Shown one piece after another: positions 6,829 through 64,000 of a DNA stretch of 64,000 bases. Made by a program: the position numbers and the translations under genes. This DNA comes from Candidatus Eiseniibacteriota bacterium (GTDB lineage: Bacteria; Eisenbacteria; RBG-16-71-46), in NCBI GenBank assembly GCA_016215625.1, contig JACRIW010000038.1:62001-126000 (forward strand). Direction: 5' to 3'. The notes under the pieces were generated by a model. The model had not been told where the DNA came from. It searched no databases and saw nothing but the letters and a program-made list of their open reading frames with translations. The number at the start of each line of letters is the position of its first letter. Positions within the stretch are counted from its first letter, which is position 1.

Positions 6829-7485
6829 ATGGCGTTTCGCGCCGAGGTGCGTCGTGCGTTGTCGCAGAGCGTCGGACTGTCGCTGGCGCAGGCCTTCGCC
6901 GCGCCCAAAGTGACCGTGATCGTCGCGGACGCGGCCGTGTCGGAGCGCGACGTCGTCGCGTTGTCCGAGCTCGCCGAGGCGCTCGTGCGTGTGGGCACGT
7001 CCCGCGGGCGGTGCATGCTGCTCCTGTCGCATGCGGGACCGGCGGCCCCGGCGCCTGCCGTGAAATCCCACGCGAAGCAGCTGCGCGCCACGCTCGGCAT
7101 GCCGGTCGTCGTGCACGACACGACCGAGAAGTCGGACTGGATCCCGGGCGAACTGGACGGGGTGGGGGCGTGCGCGCTCGACGACGAACTGCGTGAGGCC
7201 GAGGCGATCGTGCTCGTCGGGCGGTGGAGCCGCCGGAAGGACGGCGCGGTGCATGGTGGCCCGGCGCTGCTGCTGCCGGGTCTCGCGGACCCGGCGACGC
7301 GGGCGCGCTGGTCCGCGCTCGCCGATGGCGGCGCCCGCGACGCCGCGACGCGCGCCGTGACCGCACTCGTGCCCGTGGACTACGCGCTGATCTGGGACGC
7401 GTCGGACCCGCCGCGCGTGCGCGCGGGCTCGGGCGCGGAGCTGTTCGCCGCGCTCGAAGCGGAAGGCTGGCCGCTTCCGGAGTGA
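6829..7485 (+). CDS. LarA N-terminal-domain-like protein of unknown function
   Basis: This 218-residue cytoplasmic protein starts at ATG with ACCGGAGG upstream. Its order of elements resembles the N-terminal half of the LarA (nickel-pincer lactate racemase) family: VTVIVADAAVSE, then a helix ending LLLSH, then VVVHDTTEKSDW, then a short REAEAIVLVGRW segment and a Gly/Leu-rich GGPALLLPGLADPATRARW loop. It lacks the C-terminal LarA domain, which would add about 200 residues, and several canonical His/Lys positions look altered, so racemase activity is unlikely. It lies between gatB and purD. The family call is from pattern only and could be wrong. Confidence 0.45.
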   Translation: MAFRAEVRRALSQSVGLSLAQAFAAPKVTVIVADAAVSERDVVALSELAEALVRVGTSRGRCMLLLSHAGPAAPAPAVKSHAKQLRATLGMPVVVHDTTEKSDWIPGELDGVGACALDDELREAEAIVLVGRWSRRKDGAVHGGPALLLPGLADPATRARWSALADGGARDAATRAVTALVPVDYALIWDASDPPRVRAGSGAELFAALEAEGWPLPE

Positions 7486-7490
7486 GCGCG

Positions 7491-7518
7491 CTGGCCGCGT
7501 GCGCGAGCGTCGGCTAGA
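7491..7518 (+). promoter_or_regulatory. Probable promoter of purD (leaderless architecture)
   Basis: GGCTAGATTG supplies a TAGATT -10 (7513-7518), with a weak -35 (CTGGCC) 16 nt upstream. The -10 ends only 8 nt before the purD ATG, so the transcript would start within a base or two of the start codon. No Shine-Dalgarno fits. Confidence 0.5.
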
Positions 7519-7526
7519 TTGCGCGC

Positions 7527-8852
7527 ATGGCGATCTCCCGCATTCTCGTCGTGGGTTCGGGCGGACGCGAGCACGCGCTCGCGTGGCGCCTCGCGCGTGA
7601 CGCGCACGCGCCTCGCTTGATCGTGACGCCCGGCAACGACGGCATGGCGCGCGCGTTAGAGCGCCTCGACGTGAGCGACACCGACGCGGCTGGCATCGTG
7701 CGTGCCGCGCGCGACGCGCGCGTGGACCTCGTGGTCGTCGGTCCGGAGTCCGCGCTCGCCGCCGGTGTGTCCGACGCGCTCGTGGAAGCCGGCACCCCGT
7801 GCTTCGGCGCATCGCGCGCCGCGGCGCGGCTCGAGTCGAGCAAGTGGTTCGCAAAGGAAGTCATGCGCGAGGCGGGCGTGCCGACCGCGCGCGCGTTCGC
7901 GTGCGAGAGCGAGACGGAAGCCTTCGCCGCGCTCGAGACGCTGGGCGCGCCGCACGTGGTGAAGGCCGACGGCCTCGCCGCGGGCAAGGGCGTGCTCGTC
8001 ACGTCCGATCTCGCCGAAGCGCGCGCGTTCGTGCGCGACTGTCTCGGCGGCGGGCGCTTCGGCGCACAGGCGCGCGTCGTGATCGAGGAGTTCCTCGTGG
8101 GCGAGGAGGCCTCGATCATCGCGATCTGCGACGGCGAGCGTCACGTGCTGCTGCCGCCCGCGCGGGACCACAAGCGCGCGTTCGACGGCGACGCCGGACC
8201 GAACACCGGCGGCATGGGCGCGGTGGCGCCGCCCACGGCCGTGGATGCCGAGGTCGAACGAATCACGAGCGAGCAGGTGGTGACTCCCATGCTGCGTGCG
8301 ATGGCGGCGCGCGGCACGCCGTATCGTGGCGCGCTCTACTGCGGCCTCATGCTGAAGCCGGTGGGCACGGCCGCAAGCGAGCGCGTGCGTGTGGTGGAGT
8401 TCAATGCCCGCTTCGGCGATCCGGAGACACAGGTCATGCTCCCGCTCGTCGAGGGTGATTTCGCGGCACTGCTCGCGAGCGCCGCCCGCGGCGCTCTGGA
8501 GCCGCGGCACATCGGGCGCGCGACGGGTGCCGCCGTCACGATCGCGCTCGTGGACGAAGGCTATCCCGAGCGCGCGCTCGGCACCGGCACGATCGAAGGG
8601 CTCGACGCGCTCGAAGGACGCGACGGCCTGTTCGTCTTCCACGCCGGCACACGGCGCGAAGGCGACGGCTGGCGCGTGAAGGGCGGCCGCGCGGCGTACG
8701 TGACCGCGACGGGCGAGGACGCCGCGACGGCGCGCGAGCGCGCGTACGCGGCGTGTGCGACACTCCGCGGCGCGCACTGGCGCATGCGGAGCGACATCGG
8801 CGCGGGACCGGGAGTCCCCGCCGCGACGCAGCACGGCATGGGAGGGCAGTGA
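7527..8852 (+). CDS. purD: Phosphoribosylamine-glycine ligase (GAR synthetase)
   Basis: This 441-residue ATP-grasp ligase performs the second step of purine synthesis. Visible elements are the N-terminal ILVVGSGGREHALAWRL, the ATP-grasp segment VVKADGLAAGKGVLV (about 148), KRAFDGDAGPNTGGMGA (about 218) and FNARFGDPETQ (about 292). The length is normal (about 420-440). It starts at an ATG with no ribosome-binding site, directly behind a -10 hexamer. purE follows after 4 nt. Confidence 0.97.
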   Translation: MAISRILVVGSGGREHALAWRLARDAHAPRLIVTPGNDGMARALERLDVSDTDAAGIVRAARDARVDLVVVGPESALAAGVSDALVEAGTPCFGASRAAARLESSKWFAKEVMREAGVPTARAFACESETEAFAALETLGAPHVVKADGLAAGKGVLVTSDLAEARAFVRDCLGGGRFGAQARVVIEEFLVGEEASIIAICDGERHVLLPPARDHKRAFDGDAGPNTGGMGAVAPPTAVDAEVERITSEQVVTPMLRAMAARGTPYRGALYCGLMLKPVGTAASERVRVVEFNARFGDPETQVMLPLVEGDFAALLASAARGALEPRHIGRATGAAVTIALVDEGYPERALGTGTIEGLDALEGRDGLFVFHAGTRREGDGWRVKGGRAAYVTATGEDAATARERAYAACATLRGAHWRMRSDIGAGPGVPAATQHGMGGQ

Positions 8853-8856
8853 CCCG

Positions 8857-9363
8857 ATGGCGACCCGAAAGACGAACACGAAGTCGAAGGCGCTCGTGGG
8901 CATCGTGATGGGCAGCGAGTCGGACCGGCCGGTGATGGAAGAGGCGGCGAAGGTGCTCGCCGACTTCGGCGTCGGTTCGGAAGTCGTGGTGCGTTCGGCG
9001 CACCGCACTCCGGACGCGGCGGCGAAATGGGCGCGCACCGCGCGCACGCGCGGACTGCGCGTGCTCATCGCGGGAGCCGGTGGCGCCGCGCACCTCGCCG
9101 GCGCGATGGCCGCGCACTCACGGCTTCCCGTGCTCGGCGTGCCGCTCGCCTCGTCCCCGCTCGGCGGTTTCGACGCGCTGCTCTCCACCGTGCAGATGCC
9201 GCCCGGCGTGCCGGTGGGCACGCTCGGCGTCGGCGGCTGGGGCGCGCGCAACGCCGCGCATCTGGCGCTCCGCATTCTCGCGGTCTCCGACGCGGCGCTC
9301 GCGCGCCGGCTCGAGGACCACGCCGCGGCGATGGCGCGCGGCGGCAGCCCGAAGAAGAAGTAG
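8857..9363 (+). CDS. purE: 5-(carboxyamino)imidazole ribonucleotide mutase
   Basis: This 168-residue class I PurE moves the carboxylate of N5-CAIR to give CAIR. Diagnostic stretches are MGSESDRPVMEEA, VRSAHRTPD and IAGAGGAAHLAGAMAAHS. The ATG at 8857 is preceded by GGGAGGGCAGTGACCCG and was chosen over the longer frame beginning inside purD. The start Met is followed by a basic, Thr/Lys-rich tail (ATRKTNTKSK). The partner purK is not in this window. Confidence 0.95.
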   Translation: MATRKTNTKSKALVGIVMGSESDRPVMEEAAKVLADFGVGSEVVVRSAHRTPDAAAKWARTARTRGLRVLIAGAGGAAHLAGAMAAHSRLPVLGVPLASSPLGGFDALLSTVQMPPGVPVGTLGVGGWGARNAAHLALRILAVSDAALARRLEDHAAAMARGGSPKKK

Positions 9364-9399
9364 TCGAACGAAGCGACGATTCCCGAGGAGAAACCGAAG

Positions 9400-10056
9400 A
9401 TGGACATCCTGCGCGTGGACACCGACCAGCCCGAACGCCGCACGCTCGACCACGCGGCGGAGGCCGTGCTGCGTGGCGGCGTCATCGCGTTCCCGACCGA
9501 CACCCTGTACGGGCTCGGTTGTTCGCTGTTCGACGTGTCCGCAGTCGACATGGTCGCGCGGCTCAAGCGCCGTCCCCCGAGCATGGCGGTGATCTCGTTG
9601 ATTCCCGACGCCGAGCAGGCGTGGGGACTCGCGGTCGCGATCTCGCCGCTCGCCGAGCGCCTGATGAAGGCGTACTGGCCCGGCCCGCTCTCGATCATCT
9701 TCCATGCGTCCGGACTCGTGCCCGAGCCCGTCCAGGGCAAGGGCGGCACGATCGCGCTGCGCTGCCCGAAGGACACGCTCTCGCACGCGCTGCTCGGGCG
9801 CATCGGCGGCCCGGTCGTCTCCTCGAGCGCGAACCTTTCCGGGCAGCCGCCCGCGGAGACCGCGGAAGAGGTCGTGAAGTATTTCGGGAACCAGCTCGAT
9901 CTCATCCTCGACGGCGGTCCGCGCCGCGGGGGACTGCCCTCCACGCTCGTGGACGTGACCGGCCCGAAGGCGAAGCTTCTTCGCCGCGGTGCGCTGGACG
10001 TGACATCGGTGCTCGGGGACTACGAAGACCTGACTTCTCCACGGGCCGGCGGTTGA
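9400..10056 (+). CDS. L-threonylcarbamoyladenylate synthase (Sua5/YwlC/TsaC family)
   Basis: This 218-residue YrdC-domain protein should make threonylcarbamoyl-AMP for the tRNA t6A37 modification. The family signature GGVIAFPTDTLYGLGCSLFD starts near residue 26. KRRPPSMAVISLI replaces the usual KxR.kPl.vl, and SSSANLSGQPP (about 145) is canonical. It is the short form without the C-terminal Sua5 domain. GAGGAGAAACCGAAG upstream provides a good ribosome-binding site. Confidence 0.9.
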   Translation: MDILRVDTDQPERRTLDHAAEAVLRGGVIAFPTDTLYGLGCSLFDVSAVDMVARLKRRPPSMAVISLIPDAEQAWGLAVAISPLAERLMKAYWPGPLSIIFHASGLVPEPVQGKGGTIALRCPKDTLSHALLGRIGGPVVSSSANLSGQPPAETAEEVVKYFGNQLDLILDGGPRRGGLPSTLVDVTGPKAKLLRRGALDVTSVLGDYEDLTSPRAGG

Positions 10057-10082
10057 CGGCCCGGAAACCGCACTCCTAGACT
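10053..10082 (+). promoter_or_regulatory. Promoter of the LMW phosphatase gene (leaderless architecture)
   Basis: TTGACG, an 18-nt spacer and TAGACT form a good promoter. The -10 ends 7 nt before the ATG at 10090, so transcription is predicted to start at or next to the start codon. The -35 overlaps the end of the preceding gene. Confidence 0.65.
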
Positions 10083-10089
10083 GCCCCGC

Positions 10090-10584
10090 ATGCCGCCTGA
10101 TGAGAACATCGTCCGCGTGCTGTTCGTCTGCACGGGCAACACCTGCCGGAGCCCCCTCGCGGCCGCCGCGCTCCTCGCCGAGCTCGGTGACGACGCCGCG
10201 CGAGCACAGGTGGTCTCGGCGGGCACGGCGGCTGCGGAAGGGCAGCCGGCCAGCGCGCTTTCGCGCGCGGTCGCGGAGGCCGAGGGCATCGACCTCTCGC
10301 GGCACCGGTCGCGCCGTGCGGTCGCTCCGCTCGTGCGCGCCGCGGATTTCGTGTTCGTGATGGAGCCGCTGCACCGGGTCGCGATCGAGGCGCTCGGCGC
10401 CCCTCGCGAACGGGTGCACCTGCTGAGCGAGTATCCGGCCCCCGGGGAGCCCGGGATGCCGGTGAGTGATCCATTCGGAGCGTCGAAAGAAGCCTATGAA
10501 GAGTGCTGGCGGCGCATCCGCCACCACGTCCGGCGTCTCACGCCGGCCGTGCGGCAGGCGCTGAACGCACGTAACGCCTCATAG
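10090..10584 (+). CDS. Low-molecular-weight protein-tyrosine/arginine phosphatase family
   Basis: This 164-residue LMW-PTP-fold protein carries the complete P-loop CTGNTCRS (nucleophile Cys14, Arg20) and the general-acid loop VSDPFGAS (Asp127). The closest well-known relatives are YwlE/Wzb-type phosphatases. YwlE removes phosphate from phosphoarginine, which is notable because mcsB lies in this window, but the sequence alone does not separate YwlE from tyrosine phosphatases. YwlE has a Thr in the CxGNTCRSP loop; here the loop is CTGNTCRSP, compatible with the arginine phosphatase type. No ribosome-binding site precedes the ATG. Confidence 0.85.
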
Positions 10585-11570: not shown

Positions 11571-12029
11571 ATGAAGCTCGCGGTGGGCAGCGATCACGCC
11601 GGGTTCCCGCTCAAGGAACTCGTGAAGGCCGAGCTCGTGAAGCTCGGGCACGAGGTCGTGGACGTGGGCACGCACTCCGGCACGGAGTCCGTGGACTATC
11701 CCGACTTCTCCTTCGCCGTGGCCGAAGCGGTCGCGGCGAAGACGGCGGACCTCGGCGTGGTCGTCTGCGCCACCGGCATCGGCGCCAGCATCGCCGCCAA
11801 CAAGGTCGTGGGGGTGCGCGCCTCCGTCGTGACGAGCGACGAGACCGCGCGCCTGACCCGGCAGGACAACGATTCCAACGTGCTCGCCCTCGGGGCCAAG
11901 ACCGCACCCAGCGCCGAGGACGCATTGCGCTGGCTGCGCGTCTGGCTCGACACACCGTTCGCGGGAGGCCGCCACGAGCGGCGCGTGAACAAGATCCGCG
12001 ACTACGAGAGCCGCGCCTCACATCCTTGA
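11571..12029 (+). CDS. rpiB: Ribose-5-phosphate isomerase B
   Basis: This 152-residue RpiB interconverts ribose-5-P and ribulose-5-[13 protein letters not shown] at residue 5, the loop [15 protein letters not shown] (catalytic Cys66) and the C-terminal [13 protein letters not shown] are characteristic. It sits between ilvE and glyA with only a few bases on each side, consistent with one operon. Confidence 0.95.
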
Positions 12030-12040
12030 CGGAGATTCCC

Positions 12041-13315
12041 GTGTCCCATCTGCAGTCGCAGGATCCCGAAGTCGCGAAGGCCATCGCGGCCGAACGCGGC
12101 CGCCAGGGCAGTTTCCTCGAGCTGATCGCCTCCGAGAACTTCGTCAGCGACGCCGTGCTCGAGGCGCAGGGTTCGGTGCTCACGAACAAGTACGCCGAAG
12201 GCCTGCCGGGCAAGCGCTACTACGGCGGCTGCGAGTTCGTGGACGTCGCCGAGAACCTGGCGCGCGACCGCGTGAAGCAGCTCTTCGGCGCCGACCACGC
12301 CAACGTGCAGCCGCACTCCGGCGCCTCCGCCAACCTCGGCGCCTACTTCGCCGCTTCCGAACCCGGTGACGTGCTGCTCGGCATGAGCCTCGCGCACGGC
12401 GGCCACCTCACGCACGGCCACGCCGTGTCGGTGTCGGGCAAGCTCTGGAAGGCGTACCAGTACGGCGTGCGAGCGGAAGACGGCCGCATCGACTACGACG
12501 AGGTCGAGCGTCTCGCGAAGGAACACCGCCCGCGCATGCTCGTCGCGGGCGCGAGCGCCTATCCGCGCCAGATCGACTTCCCGCGCTTCGCGGCGATCGC
12601 GAAGGAAGTGGGGGCGATGCTCATGGTGGACATGGCGCACATCGCCGGGCTCGTCGCCGCGGGGCTGCACCCGAGCCCGGTGCCGTACGCCGACTTCGTG
12701 ATGAGCACGACGCACAAGACGCTGCGCGGCCCGCGCGGCGGCATCATCCTGTGCAGGGCCGAGCACGCCGAAAGACTGGACAAGTCGATCTTCCCGGGTA
12801 TGCAGGGCGGCCCGCTCATGCACGTCATCGCCGCGAAGGCCGTGTGCTTCGGCGAAGCGCTCACGCCCGGTTTCAAGGCCTACCAGCAGCGCGTCGTGGA
12901 CAACGCGCGCGTGCTTGGCGAAACGCTCGTGGCGAACGGCTACGACCTCGTTTCGGGCGGCACCGACAACCACCTGCTCCTCGTGGACCTGCGCAAGCGC
13001 GGGATGACGGGCAAGGTGGCCGAGGAGGCGCTGCACAAGGCCGAGATGACCGTGAACAAGAATGCCGTCCCGAACGACCCGCAGAAGCCGTGGGTCACGA
13101 GCGGCATCCGGATCGGCACGCCCGCGCTCACGACGCGCGGCATGGGTACCGACGAGATGAAGCTCATCGGCGGCTGGATGGCCCGGGTGCTCGACAAGCC
13201 GGGCGACGAGGCGGTCGCGAAGGAAGTGCGTTCGCAGGTGCTCGAGCTGACGGCGGGCTACCCGCTGTTCAGCTGGGAGCCGGTGCGCCGTGGCGCTCCG
13301 GCCCGTGCAAGCTGA
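12041..13315 (+). CDS. glyA: Serine hydroxymethyltransferase
   Basis: This 424-residue PLP enzyme interconverts serine and glycine and loads tetrahydrofolate with one-carbon units, feeding the purine genes around it. [10 protein letters not shown] (about 24), [19 protein letters not shown] and [13 protein letters not shown] (PLP Lys226) are intact. I chose the GTG at 12041 with GGAG 7 nt upstream over the TTG at 12026, which overlaps the rpiB stop and would add MTEIP. A strong hairpin follows the gene. Confidence 0.96.
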
Positions 13316-54203: not shown

Positions 54204-54328
54204 TCGGCCGAGACTCCCCGATGACCCAAGGCCACCCCGACTCCGGCTCGCGCGCGCAGGGACGCGAAGACGCGGCGTGGCAGGACGGATTCCTGTGCCG
54301 TGGCCCGAGGGCCCAAGGAGCTGATCGA

Positions 54329-56728
54329 GTGCCTCTTCGCCTGACCCGGTGGGTCCCGCGCTTCTGCGGGTTCGCCGCCATCCTTCTCGCAGTGCTGTTC
54401 TCGTCGTTCGGGATCGCGTGGGCGCAGGACGGGGCCGACGCGCGACCGGGCGCCCCCGCCGTCGGCCGCATCTTCGTGACGGGCAACGTCCACGTCGACA
54501 GCGCGCGCATCGTCCGGACGTTCGACGTGCCCCCGGGCACGCGCTTCTCGTCCGACCTCGTCCGCCGCGGCACGCGCAAGCTCACCGCGCTCGGACTCTT
54601 CAGCAACGTCCAGCTGCTCAAGAACGAGCACGACGGGGTGGTGGACCTCACCATCGTCGTGACCGAACGGCCGCGCCTGGCCGCGGTGCGCTTCTCGGGC
54701 AACAAGAAGCGCGAGGACGTGGACCTCGAGAAGAAGCTCTTCCTGCACGCGGGCGAGACGTTTTCGTTCGTGCAGGCGAACCTGCAGGTGGACTCGCTCG
54801 CCGAGTACTACCGCAGCGAAGGCTTCCCGCGCGCGAAGATCACCGCGAAGGCGGACACGTTGTTCGACCGCAACGAGGTGAACCTCACGTTCGAGATCGT
54901 CGAGGGCGAGAAACTGCGCATCGGCGACATCGTCTTCGAGGGGCGCACGGCGTTCCCCGCGAAGCGCCTGCGCAAGGCCATGAAGACCAAGACGAAGGGA
55001 CTCTTCGGCGGCGGCGAGCTGAAGGACGAGACCTTCGCCGAGGACCGGGAGAAGCTCGAGACCTGGTACCAGAACCACGGCTACCGGGACATGCAGGTCG
55101 CGGGCTTCGAGGTCGTGCCGGGCGCGGACCCGAAGCGCGTCACGCTCAAGGTGACCTTGTCCGAGGGCCGGCCGTACACGTTCGGCACCTCGCGCTGGGA
55201 AGGGGCGCGCACGCTCGACTCGACGTTCCTCGCGCGCGCCTGGAAGGACCGCAAGGCGGCCCCGTACGACCGCTCGCGCGTCGAACGCGCCCGCGGTGAC
55301 GTGCTGGGCGAATACGCCGAGCACGGCCTGCTCTACGTGGACATGGAGCCCGAAGAGACGGTGCGCGACTCGATCGTGGACGTGACGTTCCGCGTGCGCG
55401 AGGGGTCGCCCTCCTTCGTGCGGCGCGTGACCATCCTCGGCAACAAGGGCACCCGCGAGCACGTGCTGCGCCGCGAGCTCGACGTGCACGAAGGCGACCG
55501 CTTCCGCCGTTCGGCGCTGATCCGCAGCCAGGGCGACATGATGCGGCTCCAGCTGTTCGAGGAAGTGATGCCGGACATCTCGCCGGCCGAGAGCACCGAC
55601 GTCGACGTGATCTTCCGCGTGAAGGAGAAGCAGGTCGGCACGGCGTCCGCCGGCGCGGGCTACACGGGCGAGGCCGGCCTCACGGGCTTCCTCGAGCTCG
55701 GTCACAGCAACGTGCTCGGCAACGGCCAGTCGCTCGCGCTGCACCTCGAGCGCGGCGGCCGCAGCGACCGCCGGCGCGAGGACTACTCGCTCAGCTTCAC
55801 CGAGCCGTGGTTCCGGGATTCCCCGACGCTGCTCGGCTATTCCGTCTACAGCACCACGCGCGAGCTGCTCGAGTACGACCAGCGGCGCCGCGGCGGTTCC
55901 GTGCGCATCGGCCGGCCGTTGCCGTGGCCCGACTACTCGCGCGGATCGGTCTCGTACACGCTCGAGAACATGCGCATCACGAACGTGGACTCGAGCCTGA
56001 CGATCGCGGGCGTGAGCACGAACACCGACCTGCTCACGAGCACGCTCGAGTTCAACTTCATGCGCAACAGCACGGACAACCCGTTCTACCCGACGCGCGG
56101 CACCCGCTTCACGGCGAGCGAGGAGTTCACGGGCGGGCCGTTCGGCGGCGAGCTGCACTACTTCCGCCATCGTTACGAGGGCCGGGTCTACACGCGCAGC
56201 GCCCTCAAGAGCGTCACGAGCATGCTGCGCCTGCGGCTCGGCAGCGTCGGGCAGTACACGTGGCGCAGCGACGTGATTCCCGACTACGCGCGCTTCCGGC
56301 TCGGCGGCGGCAACACGCTCGACCCCCTGCGCGGCTACCAGGACTACCAGGTCGTGCCGAACCGCGGGTACTACTGGAGCCGGTACAACCGCATCATCTC
56401 GAGTTCGACCGGCGCGGACTCCACGATCCGTGACTCCTCGTACGTGCGCAGCCGCTATCCCGGCGGGCGCTACATGGCGTTGTTCACCCTCGAGCAGCAG
56501 TTCCCGATCGTCCACCCGCTGCACGCGCTGCTGTTCGTGGACGCGGGCAACACGTGGGACGAGCTGAAGTTCGTCAAGCCCCGTGATTTCAAGGTCGGCG
56601 CCGGCTTCGGCCTGCGGATGGAGATCCCCATCCTCGGCAACGTCGGGTTCGACTACGGCTATGGCTTCCACCGCGACGACGGGCCGAAATGGCAGGGACA
56701 CTTCCTGCTCGGCAACGTCGGGTTCTGA
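54329..56728 (+). CDS. bamA: Outer-membrane protein assembly factor BamA
   Basis: This 799-residue BamA inserts beta-barrel proteins into the outer membrane. A signal peptide (RFCGFAAILLAVLFSSFGIAWAQ) precedes five POTRA repeats (about 45-420; e.g. GRIFVTGNVHVDSARIVRTF, VTILGNKGTREHVLRREL) and a 16-strand barrel domain (about 420-799) ending ...FLLGNVGF with the aromatic C-terminus. The GTG at 54329 has AAGGAG 8 nt upstream and is preferred to the ATG at 54221, which would add a 36-residue non-family stretch. Confidence 0.96.
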   Translation: MPLRLTRWVPRFCGFAAILLAVLFSSFGIAWAQDGADARPGAPAVGRIFVTGNVHVDSARIVRTFDVPPGTRFSSDLVRRGTRKLTALGLFSNVQLLKNEHDGVVDLTIVVTERPRLAAVRFSGNKKREDVDLEKKLFLHAGETFSFVQANLQVDSLAEYYRSEGFPRAKITAKADTLFDRNEVNLTFEIVEGEKLRIGDIVFEGRTAFPAKRLRKAMKTKTKGLFGGGELKDETFAEDREKLETWYQNHGYRDMQVAGFEVVPGADPKRVTLKVTLSEGRPYTFGTSRWEGARTLDSTFLARAWKDRKAAPYDRSRVERARGDVLGEYAEHGLLYVDMEPEETVRDSIVDVTFRVREGSPSFVRRVTILGNKGTREHVLRRELDVHEGDRFRRSALIRSQGDMMRLQLFEEVMPDISPAESTDVDVIFRVKEKQVGTASAGAGYTGEAGLTGFLELGHSNVLGNGQSLALHLERGGRSDRRREDYSLSFTEPWFRDSPTLLGYSVYSTTRELLEYDQRRRGGSVRIGRPLPWPDYSRGSVSYTLENMRITNVDSSLTIAGVSTNTDLLTSTLEFNFMRNSTDNPFYPTRGTRFTASEEFTGGPFGGELHYFRHRYEGRVYTRSALKSVTSMLRLRLGSVGQYTWRSDVIPDYARFRLGGGNTLDPLRGYQDYQVVPNRGYYWSRYNRIISSSTGADSTIRDSSYVRSRYPGGRYMALFTLEQQFPIVHPLHALLFVDAGNTWDELKFVKPRDFKVGAGFGLRMEIPILGNVGFDYGYGFHRDDGPKWQGHFLLGNVGF

Positions 56729-56737
56729 CGAGGTCGC

Positions 56738-57280
56738 ATGCGATTTCCCGCCCGAGTGCTCGCCTTCGCCTGTGCGCTGTTGACGGCCGCCACCGCGGTC
56801 TTCGCGGCCGACCTGTCCGTGGGTTACATCGACTCGTCCCGCATCTTCATGGAGTACAAGGACGCGCAGGACGCCCAGCAGCGCTTCGACCGCCAGGTGC
56901 AGGGCTGGCGCGACGAGGCCACCGAGAAGGAGAAGGTGGTCACGCAGTTGCGCGCGGAACTGCGCGACCAGGGCCCGATCCTTTCGGCGCTCAAGCGGCA
57001 GGAGAAGGAGACGGCGCTGCAGCGCGCCGTGACGGAGTACGAGAACTTCATCCAGGAGATCTGGGGGCCGAACGGCCGTGCGTCGCAGGAGAACGAGCGC
57101 GCGACGGGCGAGGTGGTCCAGCAGATTCGCGCGGCCGTGGAGAAGGTCGCGGGGCAGAAGGGCCTGACGATGGTGTTCGATTCCACCAGCGGCGTGCTCG
57201 TGTACGCCGACCGTACGCTCGACATCACCGCGGACGTGCTCGCCGAACTCGCGGCGCGCACCGCGGGCACGACACGCTAG
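56738..57280 (+). CDS. Periplasmic chaperone Skp/OmpH family
   Basis: This 180-residue Skp/OmpH protein holds unfolded outer-membrane proteins on the way to BamA. A signal peptide (VLAFACALLTAATAVFAA) precedes LSVGYIDSSRIFMEYKDAQDAQQRF and a long coiled coil (about 45-130). Sited between bamA and lpxD as in many diderms. ATG 9 nt after bamA. Confidence 0.93.
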   Translation: MRFPARVLAFACALLTAATAVFAADLSVGYIDSSRIFMEYKDAQDAQQRFDRQVQGWRDEATEKEKVVTQLRAELRDQGPILSALKRQEKETALQRAVTEYENFIQEIWGPNGRASQENERATGEVVQQIRAAVEKVAGQKGLTMVFDSTSGVLVYADRTLDITADVLAELAARTAGTTR

Positions 57281-57292
57281 GAGCGTCCCCCC

Positions 57293-58345
57293 ATGCAGAC
57301 GCGCACGCTGGCCGAGCTGGCCGAGGAGCTGGGCGGCACCGTCGTGGGCGATCCCGCGACCGTCGTCAAGGGCGTCGCCGGGATCCGTGAGGCCCAGTCC
57401 GGCGACATCACGTTCATCGCGAACTCGCGCTACGACGCCTACCTGCACGAGACGAAGGCTTCCGCCGTGATCTGCGGGCGCGAGACCCGGGAATCCACCG
57501 TGCCGCTGCTGCAGGTGGACAACCCGTACCTCGCGTTCCAGAAGGTCGTGAAGCACTTCCGGCCGGAGCTGTACAAGCCGCTCGCCGGCGTGCATCCGAG
57601 CGCGGTGGTCTCGCCCGCCGCGACGCTCGGCACGAACGTCTCGGTCGGCGCGCACTGCGTCGTCGAGGCGGGCGCCAAGGTCGGCGCGAACACGGTCCTC
57701 ATGCCGGGCTGCTACGTCGGCGTGCAGGCCGCGATCGGGGACGACTGCATGATCTATCCGCGCGTCGTGATCCGCGAGGAATGCGTGATCGGCGACCGCT
57801 GCATCATTCATCCGGGCGCGGTCATCGGCGCCGACGGGTTCGGGTTCGCCTTCGACTCGGGGCGCTACCACAAGGTGCCGCAGGTGGGCACCGTGATCGT
57901 GGGCAACGACGTCGAGATCGGTGCGAACGCGACCATCGATCGCGCGACCACGCACGCGACGCGGATCGGCGACGGCACGAAGATCGACAACCTCGTCCAG
58001 ATCGGCCACAACGTCGTGACCGGCCAGCACTGCATCGTGGTGGCGCAGGTCGGCATCTCGGGCAGCACGGAGCTCGAGGACTACGTCACGATCGGCGGCC
58101 AGGCCGGTGTCATCGGTCACGTGCGGCTCGGCAAGGGCTCCATGATCGGCGGGCAGAGCGGCGTGACGAAATCCGTTCCGCCCGGTGCGAAGGTTTCGGG
58201 GTATCCGGCGATCGCGCTGGGCATCTGGCGGCGCATGAACGCCTACATCCAGCGGCTTCCGCAGCTCTTCGATCGCACGAAGCAGATCGAGGAGCGGCTG
58301 GACCGCCTCGAGCAGAACACCCAGGAAGGGGAGACGGTGCGTTGA
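57293..58345 (+). CDS. lpxD: UDP-3-O-acylglucosamine N-acyltransferase
   Basis: This 350-residue left-handed beta-helix enzyme adds the amide-linked acyl chain in lipid A synthesis. The N-terminal LpxD domain (TLAELAEELGGTVVGDP, IREAQSGDITFIANSRY) precedes hexapeptide repeats (about 100-300), with FGFAFDSGRYHKVPQVG and IDRATTHATRIGDGTKIDNLVQIGHNV typical of the family. Next start overlaps its stop by 4 nt (TTGA). Confidence 0.97.
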   Translation: MQTRTLAELAEELGGTVVGDPATVVKGVAGIREAQSGDITFIANSRYDAYLHETKASAVICGRETRESTVPLLQVDNPYLAFQKVVKHFRPELYKPLAGVHPSAVVSPAATLGTNVSVGAHCVVEAGAKVGANTVLMPGCYVGVQAAIGDDCMIYPRVVIREECVIGDRCIIHPGAVIGADGFGFAFDSGRYHKVPQVGTVIVGNDVEIGANATIDRATTHATRIGDGTKIDNLVQIGHNVVTGQHCIVVAQVGISGSTELEDYVTIGGQAGVIGHVRLGKGSMIGGQSGVTKSVPPGAKVSGYPAIALGIWRRMNAYIQRLPQLFDRTKQIEERLDRLEQNTQEGETVR

Positions 58346-59664
58346 AAGGTCGCATGCAGCGGACGATCGCCGGGCCGGCGCAGATCGAGGGCGTCGGCCT
58401 GCACACGGGTGAGAAGGGGATCATGAAGTTCCTGCCGGCTCCGGCCGGCCACGGCGTGCGGTTCGTGCGCGTGGACCTGCCGGGAAGCCCCGAGGTGCAG
58501 GTGCGTCCCGAGAACGCGCACTTCGATCCGGGCGCCGGACGGCGCACGATCCTCCAGCAGGACGGCGTGCAGATCCACACGATGGAGCACGTGCTGTCGG
58601 CCGTCGCCGGCATCGGCATCGACAACCTGCGCATCGAGGTCTCGAGCATGGAAGTGCCCGAGGGGCACGACGGCTCGGCGGCCCCGATCGCGCGTGCGCT
58701 CATGTCGGCGGGCGTCGTGGACCAGGACAAGCCGGTGCGTCATCTCAAGGTGACGAAGCCGGTGAGCTGGTCGCACAAGGGCGTCGAGCTTTCGGCCGTG
58801 CCGTACCGCGGCTGCAAGCTGACCTTCACGATCGAGTACGACCACCCGCTCATCGGCGTGCAGGAACTCTCGGTGGACGTCACGCCCGAGGTCTACCTCG
58901 AGCAGATCGCTCCGGCGCGCACGTTCGTGCTCGAGCGCGACCTCGAGGTCCTGCGCGAGGCCGGCTGGATCAAGGGCGGCCGGCTCGAGAGCGCGATCGT
59001 CGTCGGCGCGGACCGCGTGCTCAACGAGGAGCCCCTGCGCTTCCCGGACGAGTTCGTGCGTCACAAGATCCTCGACCTGCTCGGCGACCTGTTCATCCTC
59101 GGCGGCCCGCTCCTCGGGCACGTGACGGCGAAGCGTTCCGGCCATCACGGCCACGTCGAGTTCGTGAAGCACCTCAAGGAGACGCTGCCGCTTCCCGGGC
59201 GGCGCCCCGGCGGGCCGCCCGACGAGTGGGACATCACGTCCATCATGGACATCCTTCCGCACCGCTATCCGTTCCTGCTCGTGGACCGGATCACGTCGCT
59301 CGAGGAAGGGCAGTCCATCGAGGGCTACAAGAACGTCACGATCAACGAGCCGTTCTTCCAGGGTCACTTCCCGGGGCAGCCGGTGATGCCCGGCGTGCTC
59401 ATCATCGAGGCCATGGCGCAGTGCGGCGGGCTGCTCATGCTGAACTCGGTGGACGACCCGAACGACAAGCTCATGTTCTTCATGGGCATCGACGGCGCAC
59501 GCTTCCGCGTGCCCGTGACGCCGGGCGACCAGCTGCGGTTCAAGCTCACGCTGCTGAAGCTGCGCGGGCGCACCTCGAAGATGCGCGGCGAGGCCTACGT
59601 GGACGGTCAGCTCGTGGCCGAGGCCGAGCTCATGGCCTCGATCGTCGATCGGCGGCAGTCGTGA
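58342..59664 (+). CDS. lpxC-fabZ: LpxC-FabZ bifunctional fusion: UDP-3-O-acyl-GlcNAc deacetylase / beta-hydroxyacyl-ACP dehydratase
   Basis: This 440-residue protein joins two enzymes. Residues 1-290 are LpxC, the zinc deacetylase that commits UDP-GlcNAc to lipid A; zinc ligands fit MEHVLSAVAG (His83) and HKILDLLGD (His241, Asp245). Residues about 292-440 are FabZ, the dehydratase of fatty-acid elongation, with LPHRYPFLL (His307) and IIEAMAQ (Glu356). The linker is a short Pro/Gly stretch (RRPGGPPDEWD). The TTG at 58342 overlaps lpxD by 4 nt; the internal ATG at 58354 gives almost the same protein. The fusion is known from Bacteroidetes and relatives. Confidence 0.96.
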   Translation: MKGRMQRTIAGPAQIEGVGLHTGEKGIMKFLPAPAGHGVRFVRVDLPGSPEVQVRPENAHFDPGAGRRTILQQDGVQIHTMEHVLSAVAGIGIDNLRIEVSSMEVPEGHDGSAAPIARALMSAGVVDQDKPVRHLKVTKPVSWSHKGVELSAVPYRGCKLTFTIEYDHPLIGVQELSVDVTPEVYLEQIAPARTFVLERDLEVLREAGWIKGGRLESAIVVGADRVLNEEPLRFPDEFVRHKILDLLGDLFILGGPLLGHVTAKRSGHHGHVEFVKHLKETLPLPGRRPGGPPDEWDITSIMDILPHRYPFLLVDRITSLEEGQSIEGYKNVTINEPFFQGHFPGQPVMPGVLIIEAMAQCGGLLMLNSVDDPNDKLMFFMGIDGARFRVPVTPGDQLRFKLTLLKLRGRTSKMRGEAYVDGQLVAEAELMASIVDRRQS

Positions 59665-60437
59665 GCGCGCAGGTCCATCCGGCCGCGTTCGTCGAGAAGG
59701 GCGCGCGGCTGGGCGAGGGCGTCGTGGTCGGTCCCGGTGCGGTGATCGGTCCGCACGTCGTGATCGGCGAGGGCACGCGCGTCGACTCGCACGCGCTCGT
59801 GACCGGCTGGACCACGATCGGTCGCCACTGCCACATCCACCACGGCGCCGTGCTCGGCTCGCCGCCGCAGGACCTCAAATACACGAGCGAGCCGTCCTTC
59901 CTCGTGGTCGGCGACCACACGGTCTGCCGCGAGTACATGACCGCGAACCTCGCGACCGAGCCGGGCTTCACGACGCGCATCGGCAGCCACTGCCTGCTCA
60001 TGGCGTACTCGCACGTCGCGCACAACTGCCACGTCGGCGACCGCGTGATCCTCGCGAACGCCGTCCAGATGGCGGGCTACGTGAACGTGGACGACTGGGC
60101 GATCGTCGGCGGTGGCACCGTCGTGCACCAGTTCACGCGCATCGGCCGGCACGCCATGATCGGCGGCGGCTCACGCGTCTCGCAGGACGTCGTGCCGTTC
60201 GTCAAGACGGCCGGCAGCCCGCCGCGCAACGCGGGCATGAACACGATCGGGCTCTCGCGACGCGGCTTCTCGAAGGACGTGTGCGACGCGCTCGACCGCT
60301 GCTACCGGATCTTCTTCCGGAGCGGCGCGACCGCGGCGAAGGCCGTGGCCGACATCCGCGCGGAACTCCCCGGGCTGCCCGACGTGGAGCACTTCGTGCG
60401 TTTCTGCGAAACATCCGTGCGCGGTGTGACGCGCTAG
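59661..60437 (+). CDS. lpxA: UDP-N-acetylglucosamine O-acyltransferase
   Basis: This 258-residue hexapeptide-repeat enzyme performs the first step of lipid A synthesis. The repeat helix (about 1-190) precedes the C-terminal helical domain (NTIGLSRRGFSKDVCDALDRCYRIFF). The catalytic His is in SHVAHNCHVGD (His121). HHGAVLGSPPQDLKYTSEPSFL is characteristic. GTG start overlapping fabZ by 4 nt. Confidence 0.97.
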   Translation: MSAQVHPAAFVEKGARLGEGVVVGPGAVIGPHVVIGEGTRVDSHALVTGWTTIGRHCHIHHGAVLGSPPQDLKYTSEPSFLVVGDHTVCREYMTANLATEPGFTTRIGSHCLLMAYSHVAHNCHVGDRVILANAVQMAGYVNVDDWAIVGGGTVVHQFTRIGRHAMIGGGSRVSQDVVPFVKTAGSPPRNAGMNTIGLSRRGFSKDVCDALDRCYRIFFRSGATAAKAVADIRAELPGLPDVEHFVRFCETSVRGVTR

Positions 60438-60446
60438 GGAGGCGGC

Positions 60447-61430
60447 ATGGAAGCGGTTCGCGCCGGTGTGTGGGGCGTCGGGGTGTGGGGAGAGAAGCAC
60501 GCGCGGGTCTATTCGAGCGTGCCCGAGGCGTCGTTCGTCGGCGTCTACGACCAGTCGCCCGAACGCGCGAAGGCGGTGGCCGCGCAGTACGGCGGGCGAG
60601 CGTTCGAGACGCCGGAGGCGCTGCTCGCCGAGTGCGAGGCCGTTTCGGTCGCGACGCCGACGGTGGCGCACCGGGACGCGACCGAACGTGCGCTCGCGGC
60701 GGGCTGCCACGTGCTCGTCGAGAAGCCGATGGCCGTCACGGTCGCCGACTGCGACGCGATGATCGCCGCGGCCGCGGCCGCGAAGCGCACGCTCCAGGTC
60801 GGGCAGGTCGAGCGCTTCAATCCCGCGCTGCTTGCGGCGAAGCCGTTCGTGAAGCGCCCGAAGTTCATCGAAGGGCACCGCATGGCCGCGTTCCAGCCGC
60901 GCTCGCTCGACATCGACGTGGTCGGCGACCTCATGATCCACGACATCGACGCGGTGCTCTACCTCACGGGCCGCACGCCCTCGCAGATCTCCGCGGTCGG
61001 CGTGGCCGTGCTGTCGGGCAACGAGGACATCGCGAACGCCCGCCTCGAGTTCGAGGACGGCTGCGTCGCGAACCTGACCGCGAGCCGCGTGTCGGTCGAA
61101 CGCCTCCGGCGGATCCGCTTCTTCCAGCAGGACGCGTACGTGTCGGTGGACCTGTTCGACAAGTCCGGCGAGGCGTTCGTGATCAAGGACCCGGGCTCCT
61201 TCAAGCCGGGACAGGCCGACCCCTTCGCGCTGCTCGCAGGCATCGAGCGCACGAAGCTCGACGTGCCCGCGGGCGAGCCGCTCACGTTCGAACTGCAGGC
61301 GTTCCTGCGTTCGCTGCGCGGTGCGGGCGAGGGCGCGGCTTCGGCGCGCGCCGGACGGGACGCGCTCTTCGTCGCCGAAGAAGTGCGCGAAGCCATGCGG
61401 CGCCGGGCGCTGCAATGGGCGGGGCGCTGA
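60447..61430 (+). CDS. GnnA-like Gfo/Idh oxidoreductase in the lpx cluster
   Basis: This 327-residue NAD-dependent oxidoreductase has a Rossmann motif (GVWGVGVWGEKHARVY), the catalytic VEKPMAV (about 92), VGQVERFNPAL and GDLMIHDIDAVLYL. It resembles GnnA, which oxidises the 3-OH of UDP-GlcNAc so that GnnB can add an amino group, giving lipid A with a GlcN3N unit and only amide-linked chains. gnnA normally neighbours lpxA and lpxB, as here. No GnnB aminotransferase is next to it, so the role is inferred. AGGGAGGCGGC precedes the ATG. Confidence 0.75.
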   Translation: MEAVRAGVWGVGVWGEKHARVYSSVPEASFVGVYDQSPERAKAVAAQYGGRAFETPEALLAECEAVSVATPTVAHRDATERALAAGCHVLVEKPMAVTVADCDAMIAAAAAAKRTLQVGQVERFNPALLAAKPFVKRPKFIEGHRMAAFQPRSLDIDVVGDLMIHDIDAVLYLTGRTPSQISAVGVAVLSGNEDIANARLEFEDGCVANLTASRVSVERLRRIRFFQQDAYVSVDLFDKSGEAFVIKDPGSFKPGQADPFALLAGIERTKLDVPAGEPLTFELQAFLRSLRGAGEGAASARAGRDALFVAEEVREAMRRRALQWAGR

Positions 61431-62569
61431 CGCAGCCCGCCGGAGCCCCGCCGCGCCGCATCCTGATCGTGGCCGGGGAGGCGTCCGGCGATCATCACGC
61501 GGCCGCGCTCGTGCGCGAACTGCGCGCGCGCGCCGCGGTGGACGTCTGCGGCGTCGCCGGACCGCGCATGCGCGCCGAAGGCGTGCGGGCGATCGTGCCG
61601 CAGGAGAGCCTCGCCGTGATCGGCTTTTCGGGCGTGCTCGCGAAGCTGCCCGAGCTCTTCGCCGCGCGCGGGGCGATCCTGCGCGAGATGCGGTCGTTCG
61701 CGCCGCACGTGGTCGTGCTCGTGGACTATCCGGGATTCAACCTGCGGCTGGGACCGCAGCTGAAGCGTTTCGGCGCGAAGCTGTTCCATTACATCGCGCC
61801 ACAGGTGTGGGCGTGGCATCCGGAGCGCGCGGCCGAGATGGCCGCGTGGGTGGACCGGCTCGCCGTCGTGTTCCCGTTCGAGGAGGCGATCTTCCGCGAC
61901 GCGGGCGTGGACACGCGCTTCGTCGGGCACCCGCTGCTCGACGCGCTCGAGCCCGAAGTGGACGAGCGCACGCTGCGCGCCGAGCTCGGCATCGGCGCGG
62001 ACGCGCCGATCGTCGGGCTGCTGCCCGGCAGCCGGCGGGGCGAACTGGGGCACCACCTCGCGCCGATGCTCGAAGCCGCGCGCGTGCTCGTCGCCCGGGT
62101 GCCGAAGGCCGTGCCTGTGGTCGCGCTCGCGGAAGGCTTCAGCACGTCGGAGAAGGCGTTCGCGCGTTTCCCCGAGGTGAAGGCGCTGCGCGGCCGCACG
62201 CGCGCGATCCAGAAGTGCGCGGCGTGCTGCGCGGTCGCCTCGGGCACCGCGACGCTCGAGACCGCGCTCTTCGGCACCCCGCTCGCCATCGTCTACCGCG
62301 TGAACGCGCTCAACTGGGCGATCGCACGGCGCGTCGTGAAGCTGCCGCGCATCGGCCTGCCGAACATCGTCGCCGGCGCCGAGGTCGCACCGGAGCTGCT
62401 GCAGGCGGACTTCACGCCCGCGCGCCTCGCGGACCTGCTGGGCGGCTGGCTCGAACGCCCTGCGGAACTGGCCGCCCGCCGCGCCGCGCTCGCCGTGGTG
62501 CGCGAACGGCTCGGGGGCCCCGGCGCTTCCGCGCGCACCGCCGAGGCGGTGCTGGAGCTGATCGCGTGA
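61415..62569 (+). CDS. lpxB: Lipid-A-disaccharide synthase
   Basis: This 384-residue GT19 glycosyltransferase condenses UDP-diacylglucosamine with lipid X. VAGEASGDHHAAALVRELR (about 19), PQESLAVIGFSGVLAKLPEL, LVDYPGFNLRL, YIAPQVWAWHPERAAEM and LPGSRRGELGHHLAPM identify it. ATG overlapping the GnnA-like gene by 16 nt. Confidence 0.97.
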   Translation: MGGALTQPAGAPPRRILIVAGEASGDHHAAALVRELRARAAVDVCGVAGPRMRAEGVRAIVPQESLAVIGFSGVLAKLPELFAARGAILREMRSFAPHVVVLVDYPGFNLRLGPQLKRFGAKLFHYIAPQVWAWHPERAAEMAAWVDRLAVVFPFEEAIFRDAGVDTRFVGHPLLDALEPEVDERTLRAELGIGADAPIVGLLPGSRRGELGHHLAPMLEAARVLVARVPKAVPVVALAEGFSTSEKAFARFPEVKALRGRTRAIQKCAACCAVASGTATLETALFGTPLAIVYRVNALNWAIARRVVKLPRIGLPNIVAGAEVAPELLQADFTPARLADLLGGWLERPAELAARRAALAVVRERLGGPGASARTAEAVLELIA

Positions 62570-63225
62570 GCCGCGGCGGGTATCCGTGGTGGCTCGAGCC
62601 CGCGGCCGCGGCCGGGGCGTTCGTGCTGAGGCTGCTCGGGCGCACGTGGCGCGTGGACCAGCGCGACGATCCCGAGTTCGTGCGCGCGCGCGACTCGGGC
62701 GAGGCGTTCGTGTACGCGTTCTGGCATGCACGGCTCCTGCCGCTCGCGTTCACGCACCGCCACGAAGGCATCGTGGTGCTCGTCAGCCGGCACCGCGACG
62801 GCCAGCTCATCACACGCGTGATCGAGCACCTGGGTTTCCGCACCGCGCGCGGCTCGAGCACGCGCGGAGGCGAGGCCGGTGTGCGCGAGATGCTCGCGGC
62901 CGGCGGGCGCGGTGAGGCCATCGCCATCACCCCGGACGGCCCGCGCGGCCCGGCGGAGGAATTGAAGGACGGACTCGTGTACGTGGCCCAACGGCTCGGA
63001 CGGCGCATCGTGCCGATCGGGACGTCGTCGGCCTCGTCCTGGGTGTTCCGATCGTGGGACCGATTCCGCGTCCCGCGGCCGTTCGCGCGCGTCGCGATCC
63101 GGCACGCGGCGCCGCTGAAGGCCCGGCTCGAGGGCGAGAGCGACGAGGAGGCGCGTGCGCGCGTGCAGGCGGCGCTCGACGAAGTCACGCGTGAAGTCCG
63201 CGGCCGCAGCGGGGAGGGCGCATGA
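62566..63225 (+). CDS. DUF374-type lysophospholipid acyltransferase family protein
   Basis: This 219-residue protein has the DUF374 pattern: EAFVYAFWHARLLPLAF, VLVSRHRDGQLITRVIEHLGF, GSSTRGGEAG, and ITPDGPRGPAEELKDGLVYVAQ. It is expected to be membrane-associated and to add an acyl chain to a lipid, probably to lipid A given its position between lpxB and waaA, where LpxL/LpxM-like work is needed. The exact acceptor is not shown. GTG start overlapping lpxB by 4 nt. Confidence 0.85.
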   Translation: MSRGGYPWWLEPAAAAGAFVLRLLGRTWRVDQRDDPEFVRARDSGEAFVYAFWHARLLPLAFTHRHEGIVVLVSRHRDGQLITRVIEHLGFRTARGSSTRGGEAGVREMLAAGGRGEAIAITPDGPRGPAEELKDGLVYVAQRLGRRIVPIGTSSASSWVFRSWDRFRVPRPFARVAIRHAAPLKARLEGESDEEARARVQAALDEVTREVRGRSGEGA

Positions 63226-64000
63226 GCCTCGCGTGGACCGCGTACCGCGTGCTCGCGCCCGTGCTCGGCGCCGTCGCGCCGTCGGCCGGCATGTTCGCAT
63301 CGCCGAACGAGCAGCCGTTCTGGAAGGAGCGCATGGGCGCGGCGTCGCTGCCCGGCGGGTGCCACGCCTGGGTGCATGCGGCGTCGCTCGGCGAGGCCGC
63401 GGCGGTGCCGCCGCTGCTGCGCGAACTGCGCCGCAGCGTGCCGGACGCGCGGTTCTGGCTCACCGCGACCTCGCGCGGCGGCCGCGCGAAACTGCGGCAG
63501 ATCGAGCGCACCGTGTCCCTCGCGCCGATCGACTCGCCGCAGGCCGTGCGCCGCTTCGTGGAAGGCGTCGCGCCGGAACGGCTGCTGCTCGTCGAGACCG
63601 AACTGTGGCCGCACTGGCTGTTGCGCGCGCGCGCCGAGGAGATCCCGGTCGCGGTCGTGAGCGCGCGGCTCAGCGAGCGATCGGTCGGGCGCTATCGCGG
63701 GTTGGGGGCCGGCATGCGCGAACTGGTCGGCGGTCTCGCCGCCGTGCTCTGCCAGACCGAAGAGGACCGGCGGCGCTGGCTCGAGATCGGTGCGGCGCGC
63801 GACCGCGTGCGCGTGGTGGGCAACCTCAAGAGCGACGGATTGCCCGAGCCCGCGGCCGATCGGGCCACGGCACGCGCCGCGATGGGCGCCGAGCCGGCGC
63901 GGCCGCTGTTCGTGCTCGGCAGCCTGCGTCCGGGAGAAGGCCGCCAGCTCGCGCGCGCGTGGATGGCGCTGCCCGAGGACGTGCGTGCGGGGTGGACGGT
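63222..64000 (+). CDS. waaA: 3-deoxy-D-manno-octulosonic acid transferase (Kdo transferase), 5' part
   Basis: The first 259 residues of WaaA (KdtA) run off the window end and so are missing from the ORF track. This GT30 enzyme adds Kdo to lipid IVA. WVHAASLGEAAAVPPLLREL carries the catalytic-base Glu (about 58), and LLLVETELWPHWLLRARAEEIPVAVVSARLSERS and CQTEEDRRRWLEIGA..VVGNLKSD are hallmark stretches. The ATG overlaps the acyltransferase by 4 nt and has GGGGAGGGCGC upstream. Confidence 0.95.
   Translation, partial: MSLAWTAYRVLAPVLGAVAPSAGMFASPNEQPFWKERMGAASLPGGCHAWVHAASLGEAAAVPPLLRELRRSVPDARFWLTATSRGGRAKLRQIERTVSLAPIDSPQAVRRFVEGVAPERLLLVETELWPHWLLRARAEEIPVAVVSARLSERSVGRYRGLGAGMRELVGGLAAVLCQTEEDRRRWLEIGAARDRVRVVGNLKSDGLPEPAADRATARAAMGAEPARPLFVLGSLRPGEGRQLARAWMALPEDVRAGWT

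Follow-up and report, generated by a model that had tools for sequence, protein, structure and literature searches.

A probable gnnA gene without an adjacent gnnB in an Eisenbacteria lpx cluster and a candidate aminotransferase partner in trans

The closest described counterpart of the gene considered here is GnnA of Acidithiobacillus ferrooxidans, which is represented by two structures, 7bvj and 7bvk, both titled as the UDP-N-acetylglucosamine 3-dehydrogenase GnnA of this species. GnnA initiates the exchange of an oxygen for a nitrogen in the sugar of lipid A, the anchor in the bacterial outer membrane. According to what Sweet et al. reportedly described in 2004, gnnB adjoins gnnA in A. ferrooxidans. 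Other bacteria depart from this arrangement. The gnnA and gnnB of Mesorhizobium loti lie apart from each other (PMC5644692), and M. loti is among the species listed with GlcN3N, as is the lipid A of Legionella pneumophila (PMC8036547). Hybrid GlcN/GlcN3N backbones are also known, from Capnocytophaga (PMC3342949). Since Legionella and M. loti also lack the adjacency, an adjoining gnnB is not taken here as a defining property of GnnA. Herein, a stretch of 64,000 nucleotides from the genome of an uncultured Eisenbacteria lineage (the window) is described, whose gnnA, unlike that of A. ferrooxidans, has no gnnB beside it.

The lpx cluster and the identity of its gnnA

The genes of the cluster are arranged in the window as follows.

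54221-56728, forward strand: bamA-like outer-membrane assembly gene, head of the conserved cluster, placed by synteny across the class
56738-57280, forward strand: skp-like periplasmic chaperone gene, placed by synteny
57293-58345, forward strand: lpxD, second N-acyltransferase (NF002060, 414 bits; TIGR01853, 364 bits)
58354-59664, forward strand: lpxC/fabZ fusion, deacetylase and 3-hydroxyacyl-ACP dehydratase in a single open reading frame (TIGR00325 and TIGR01750 above cut-off; PRK13188 at 464.4 bits, just short of its cut-off of 465)
59661-60437, forward strand: lpxA, acyl-ACP--UDP-sugar acyltransferase, GTG start at 59661 (NF003657, 333 bits; TIGR01852, 311 bits)
60447-61430, forward strand: very probably gnnA, UDP-GlcNAc 3-dehydrogenase of 327 residues with the Gfo/Idh/MocA fold (7bvj best by sequence and fold; 74 of 94 conserved positions)
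61415-62569, forward strand: lpxB, lipid-A-disaccharide synthase (TIGR00215, 273 bits; PF02684)
62566-63225, forward strand: DUF374 protein (PF04028, 98 bits), presumably an LpxJ-like acyltransferase that acts late on lipid A
63222-63998, forward strand: kdtA, Kdo transferase, truncated by the window end (PRK05749 models, at most 153 bits over the part present)

The names bamA and skp are presumptive, having been assigned from the typical gene order. The gnnA frame starts with an ATG just downstream of AGGGAGG, 9 bases past the lpxA stop, and its end overlaps lpxB by 16 bases; the open reading frame that an earlier note on this DNA had placed between lpxA and lpxB is thus real. The order bamA-skp-lpxD-lpxC/fabZ-lpxA-gnnA-lpxB-(DUF374)-kdtA is conserved in the class of the window and partly beyond, and because it is kept so widely, the position of gnnA between lpxA and lpxB is not due to chance. 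No aminotransferase frame, and thus no gnnB adjacent to gnnA, was found in the lpx cluster of the window, as the same note had observed.

The product of gnnA belongs to the Pfam family GFO_IDH_MocA. Its best sequence match in the PDB is 7bvj (E 1.3e-57, followed by the next family at 4.7e-19), with about 39% identity over the full length, and the two proteins share the EKP lysine and the RSLDIDV..DLMIHD motif; 7bvj is likewise the top PDB match of a Geobacteraceae GnnA that adjoins gnnB. The window protein was modelled with AlphaFold2 (pLDDT 93.8), and a fold search with this model placed 7bvj and 7bvk on top (E 3.7e-36, TMq 0.87-0.88), the next enzyme appearing at 5e-23. When 94 positions conserved to at least 93% in 30 gnnB-paired GnnAs plus 7bvj were used as reference, the window protein and 7bvj each kept 74, in contrast with 44 for the WbpB-like paralogue of the same genome and 33-34 for two other paralogues, and by these residue counts the window protein belongs with the gnnB-paired GnnAs and is set off from other Gfo/Idh enzymes. 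G10/G12/G15, K93 (the EKP lysine), D161, H165 and R214 are invariant across 21 sequences, and the NAD-binding Rossmann motif GxGxxG, the EKP lysine and DLMIHD are all conserved in the window protein. The VEKP and VGQVERFNP motifs, on which the assignment to GnnA had originally been based together with the gene position, are both present, at positions that are well conserved in the GnnA family. A conservative change of V206 to L is the only consistent difference between the relatives of the window and the gnnB-paired GnnAs; with this single change and 74 of 94 positions kept, there is no sign of an altered function.

The protein is therefore taken as an orthologue of GnnA on the grounds of its sequence and fold, its conserved residues and the place of its gene in the operon, and the gene at 60447-61430 is very probably gnnA; as far as its sequence indicates, it would encode the ordinary GnnA of an uncultured lineage, a known enzyme with no functional change. 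The model NF040723 for UDP-GlcNAc 3-dehydrogenase of the archaeal type was rejected as a discriminator, because it fails to separate GnnA from the WbpB-like paralogue. Its cut-off of 450 bits is missed by the window protein (167.7 bits) and also by a gnnB-paired GnnA of Geobacteraceae (231.7 bits), so that bacterial GnnA lies outside the scope of this model. Elsewhere in the window, the segment 33175-33594 gives a further match of the Gfo/Idh type, with 33% over 136 residues.

The LpxA of the window keeps the active-site histidines, and the loop that reads TIHRGT in Escherichia coli is TANLAT here, one residue shorter. The LpxA sequence failed as a read-out of acceptor choice, as no position separating the acceptor types (GlcNAc vs GlcNAc3N) was found in the comparison; the structure of the Leptospira LpxA was not among the matches listed. 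LpxI (PF06230) was not found in the genome of the window by a search that detected the Caulobacter positive control. In a Nitrospirota locus (L130:7050-7889), an extra frame of 279 residues, reading like LpxI by eye, lies between lpxA and gnnA, and Myxococcota and Thermodesulfobacteriota loci have lpxA-gnnA gaps of a similar size as well (about 0.8-1.1 kb).

Distribution of lone gnnA genes

The missing gnnB, to which the earlier note had drawn attention, proved not to be an oddity. Among 137 sampled loci, of which the 80 named ones are the best matches listed to the A. ferrooxidans GnnA and are biased toward that enzyme, the order lpxA-gnnA-lpxB without gnnB was seen in 55, spread over the class of the window and seven named phyla, and lpxA-gnnA-gnnB-lpxB in 7. 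An adjacent gnnB occurs in 30 of the sampled loci, every one of them from Pseudomonadota or Thermodesulfobacteriota; outside these two phyla, the lone gnnA was the only arrangement seen among the sampled loci. The gnnB-less cluster is kept in the family of the window, in its class and in other phyla. A tree of 119 GnnA rows, quickly built from a sample with the above bias, with many open forks and a root that is not known, gathers all 30 gnnB-adjacent rows inside one clade of 62 rows (support 99), and the remaining 57 rows, including the window, which lies outside that clade of paired members, are all lone. A search of the open literature yielded no paper on gnnA standing alone in these phyla.

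An Ectothiorhodospiraceae locus carries two lpxA genes (7120-7992 and 11963-12859), one by gnnA-gnnB and the other in an ordinary lpx cluster, and may give rise to a hybrid lipid A. The apparent loss of gnnA from several genomes was put down to likely assembly gaps, because lpxA lies at a contig end (G011, G038, G045) or is missing too (G014, G025).

A candidate partner in trans and the competing readings

The genome of the window contains three long DegT genes, two of which score as ArnB/PseC-like enzymes of the 4-aminotransferase type (351-376 bits with the ArnB model). The third, on the minus strand of contig C1 at about 9209-10333, is the sole 3-amino-type DegT of the genome and the one candidate yielded by the search for a GnnB-type PLP aminotransferase that had been proposed earlier. 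It shares 53% identity with an operon GnnB of Geobacteraceae and keeps 91 of 109 GnnB-conserved positions, compared with 85 in WbpE, 79 in QdtB and 60-66 in the two other DegTs of the genome. It also carries Q290 and Y315 (own numbering), which are typical of operon GnnBs (Q in 29 of 29, Y in 28 of 29), whereas QdtB-type enzymes have L or T and H at these sites and the 4-aminotransferase-like DegTs have L and H or N; in WbpE-type enzymes, the Q is mostly shared and the 315 site is variable. In all three trees, the C1 DegT was placed not inside the operon-GnnB clade but in a clade separate from both operon GnnB and WbpE, composed of DegTs mostly from lone-gnnA genomes (support 97 and 98 in two trees, 94 in the third). 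The C1 DegT is thus a good candidate for GnnB, and the partner of GnnA is very probably encoded in trans. The earlier note had left two alternatives, a GnnB encoded elsewhere or a sugar modified in a different manner. The former is favoured by the C1 DegT and by the precedents of Legionella and M. loti, and the latter found no support, as only V206 to L separates the relatives of the window from the gnnB-paired GnnAs.

As to the substrate, the pairing of the enzymes, the use of the amino sugar by LpxA and the structure of the lipid A, we infer a pathway that we hold to be likely, in which GnnA and a trans-encoded GnnB-type aminotransferase make UDP-GlcNAc3N and the chains at position 3 of the lipid A are amide-linked. 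GnnA would oxidise the 3-hydroxyl of UDP-GlcNAc with NAD+, and the resulting 3-keto sugar would be turned into UDP-GlcNAc3N by the C1 GnnB-type PLP aminotransferase. LpxA would then put a 3-hydroxyacyl chain onto the 3-amino group, after which LpxC, LpxD and LpxB would proceed as usual, and the finished lipid A would contain 2,3-diamino-2,3-dideoxyglucose and carry its chains in amide linkage.

The C1 DegT is encoded in a trio with a Gfo/Idh dehydrogenase and a QdtC-like acetyltransferase (L043:9209-12179, on C1 of G000). Nearly every genome sampled from the family keeps these three genes together, and the trio is also found in Zixibacteria, so that the DegT may mainly serve its Wbp/Qdt-like neighbours and another 3-acetamido sugar. 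The acetyltransferase and the conservation of the trio would fit a true GnnA that relies on some other aminotransferase, with the C1 DegT restricted to its own trio. We consider this unlikely, because the other two long DegTs of the genome look like 4-aminotransferases and because in another family of the same class (f5) a GnnB-type DegT stands alone with no trio partners nearby, in the one locus scanned near a deoxyhypusine-synthase-like gene and beside housekeeping-type neighbours.

That the oxidoreductase works without any GnnB, producing a 3-keto or 3-epimerised UDP-sugar or acting on another sugar, with a lipid A that is different or unchanged, appears improbable. It would agree with the 57 GnnA rows outside the proteobacterial and desulfobacterial clade, in which gnnB is never adjacent, and with a few gnnA genomes that have no clear GnnB-type gene. 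One of these (G166, 94% complete), with gnnA beside lpxB at C26:43390-44322 (L325), gave no GnnB-type match at 1e-70, and another (G029, 88% complete) has only a 4-aminotransferase-like DegT. Against it, all gnnA-bearing relatives that are at least 90% complete hold a DegT matching GnnB below 1e-80, the one conservative change is the only residue signature that separates lone from paired enzymes, and Legionella combines a lone gnnA with GlcN3N. Its extension to many phyla, in which the GnnA of the lpx operon would feed 3-keto or 3-epimerised UDP-GlcNAc to LpxA or another enzyme and generate an undescribed lipid A sugar, is given very little credence. The co-occurrence statistics for gnnA and GnnB-type genes are weak. 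In a phylum with patchy gnnA, GnnB-like genes defined by E-value were present in 6 of 7 gnnA genomes and 11 of 17 others (p 0.31), and this test was set aside as uninformative, such genes being common. At the level of clades, the counts were 5 of 7 and 5 of 17 (p 0.075, relatedness uncorrected), and with the WbpE-type clade included in a post hoc grouping, 6 of 7 and 5 of 17 (p 0.018, relatedness again uncorrected). Zixibacteria were dropped as a test, because both genes are near-universal there (78 of 84 genomes have gnnA, and 83 of 84 have a DegT that matches strongly, below 1e-98) and offer no contrast.

A mixed or conditional route, in which only part of the pool passes through GnnA and the trans aminotransferase and the lipid A becomes a GlcN/GlcN3N hybrid like that of Capnocytophaga, is highly improbable: a shared off-operon aminotransferase would permit such an uncoupled supply, but the locus of the window has one lpxA (counted in that locus) and Capnocytophaga has two.

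Implications and comparison with known systems

With a lone gnnA spread so widely, GlcN3N lipid A may well be common among several of the uncultured phyla. If the pathway through UDP-GlcNAc3N is right, a diamino-type lipid A with alkali-resistant amide-linked chains would be normal in the class of the window, Zixibacteria and other large uncultured groups, rather than a speciality of some Pseudomonadota. In annotation, it would be better to search for gnnB off the operon than to assume an odd sugar.

The candidate GnnB of the window genome resides in a trio comparable to the WbpB/WbpD/WbpE and QdtB/QdtC pathways, which draw on the same enzyme superfamilies. As for the arrangement of gnnA, M. 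loti resembles the window in the separation of gnnA from gnnB, although the M. loti gnnA also lies away from lpxA and lpxB. Two Legionella loci share with the window a gnnA beside lpxB without an adjacent gnnB, and a Bdellovibrionota locus shares the full order lpxA-gnnA-lpxB without gnnB; in both groups, a GnnB/WbpE-type gene is encoded elsewhere, the best one of Legionella in the order lapB-DegT-pyrF. The aminotransferases of Legionella and Bdellovibrionota fall in the WbpE clade, whereas the C1 DegT of the window genome belongs to another.
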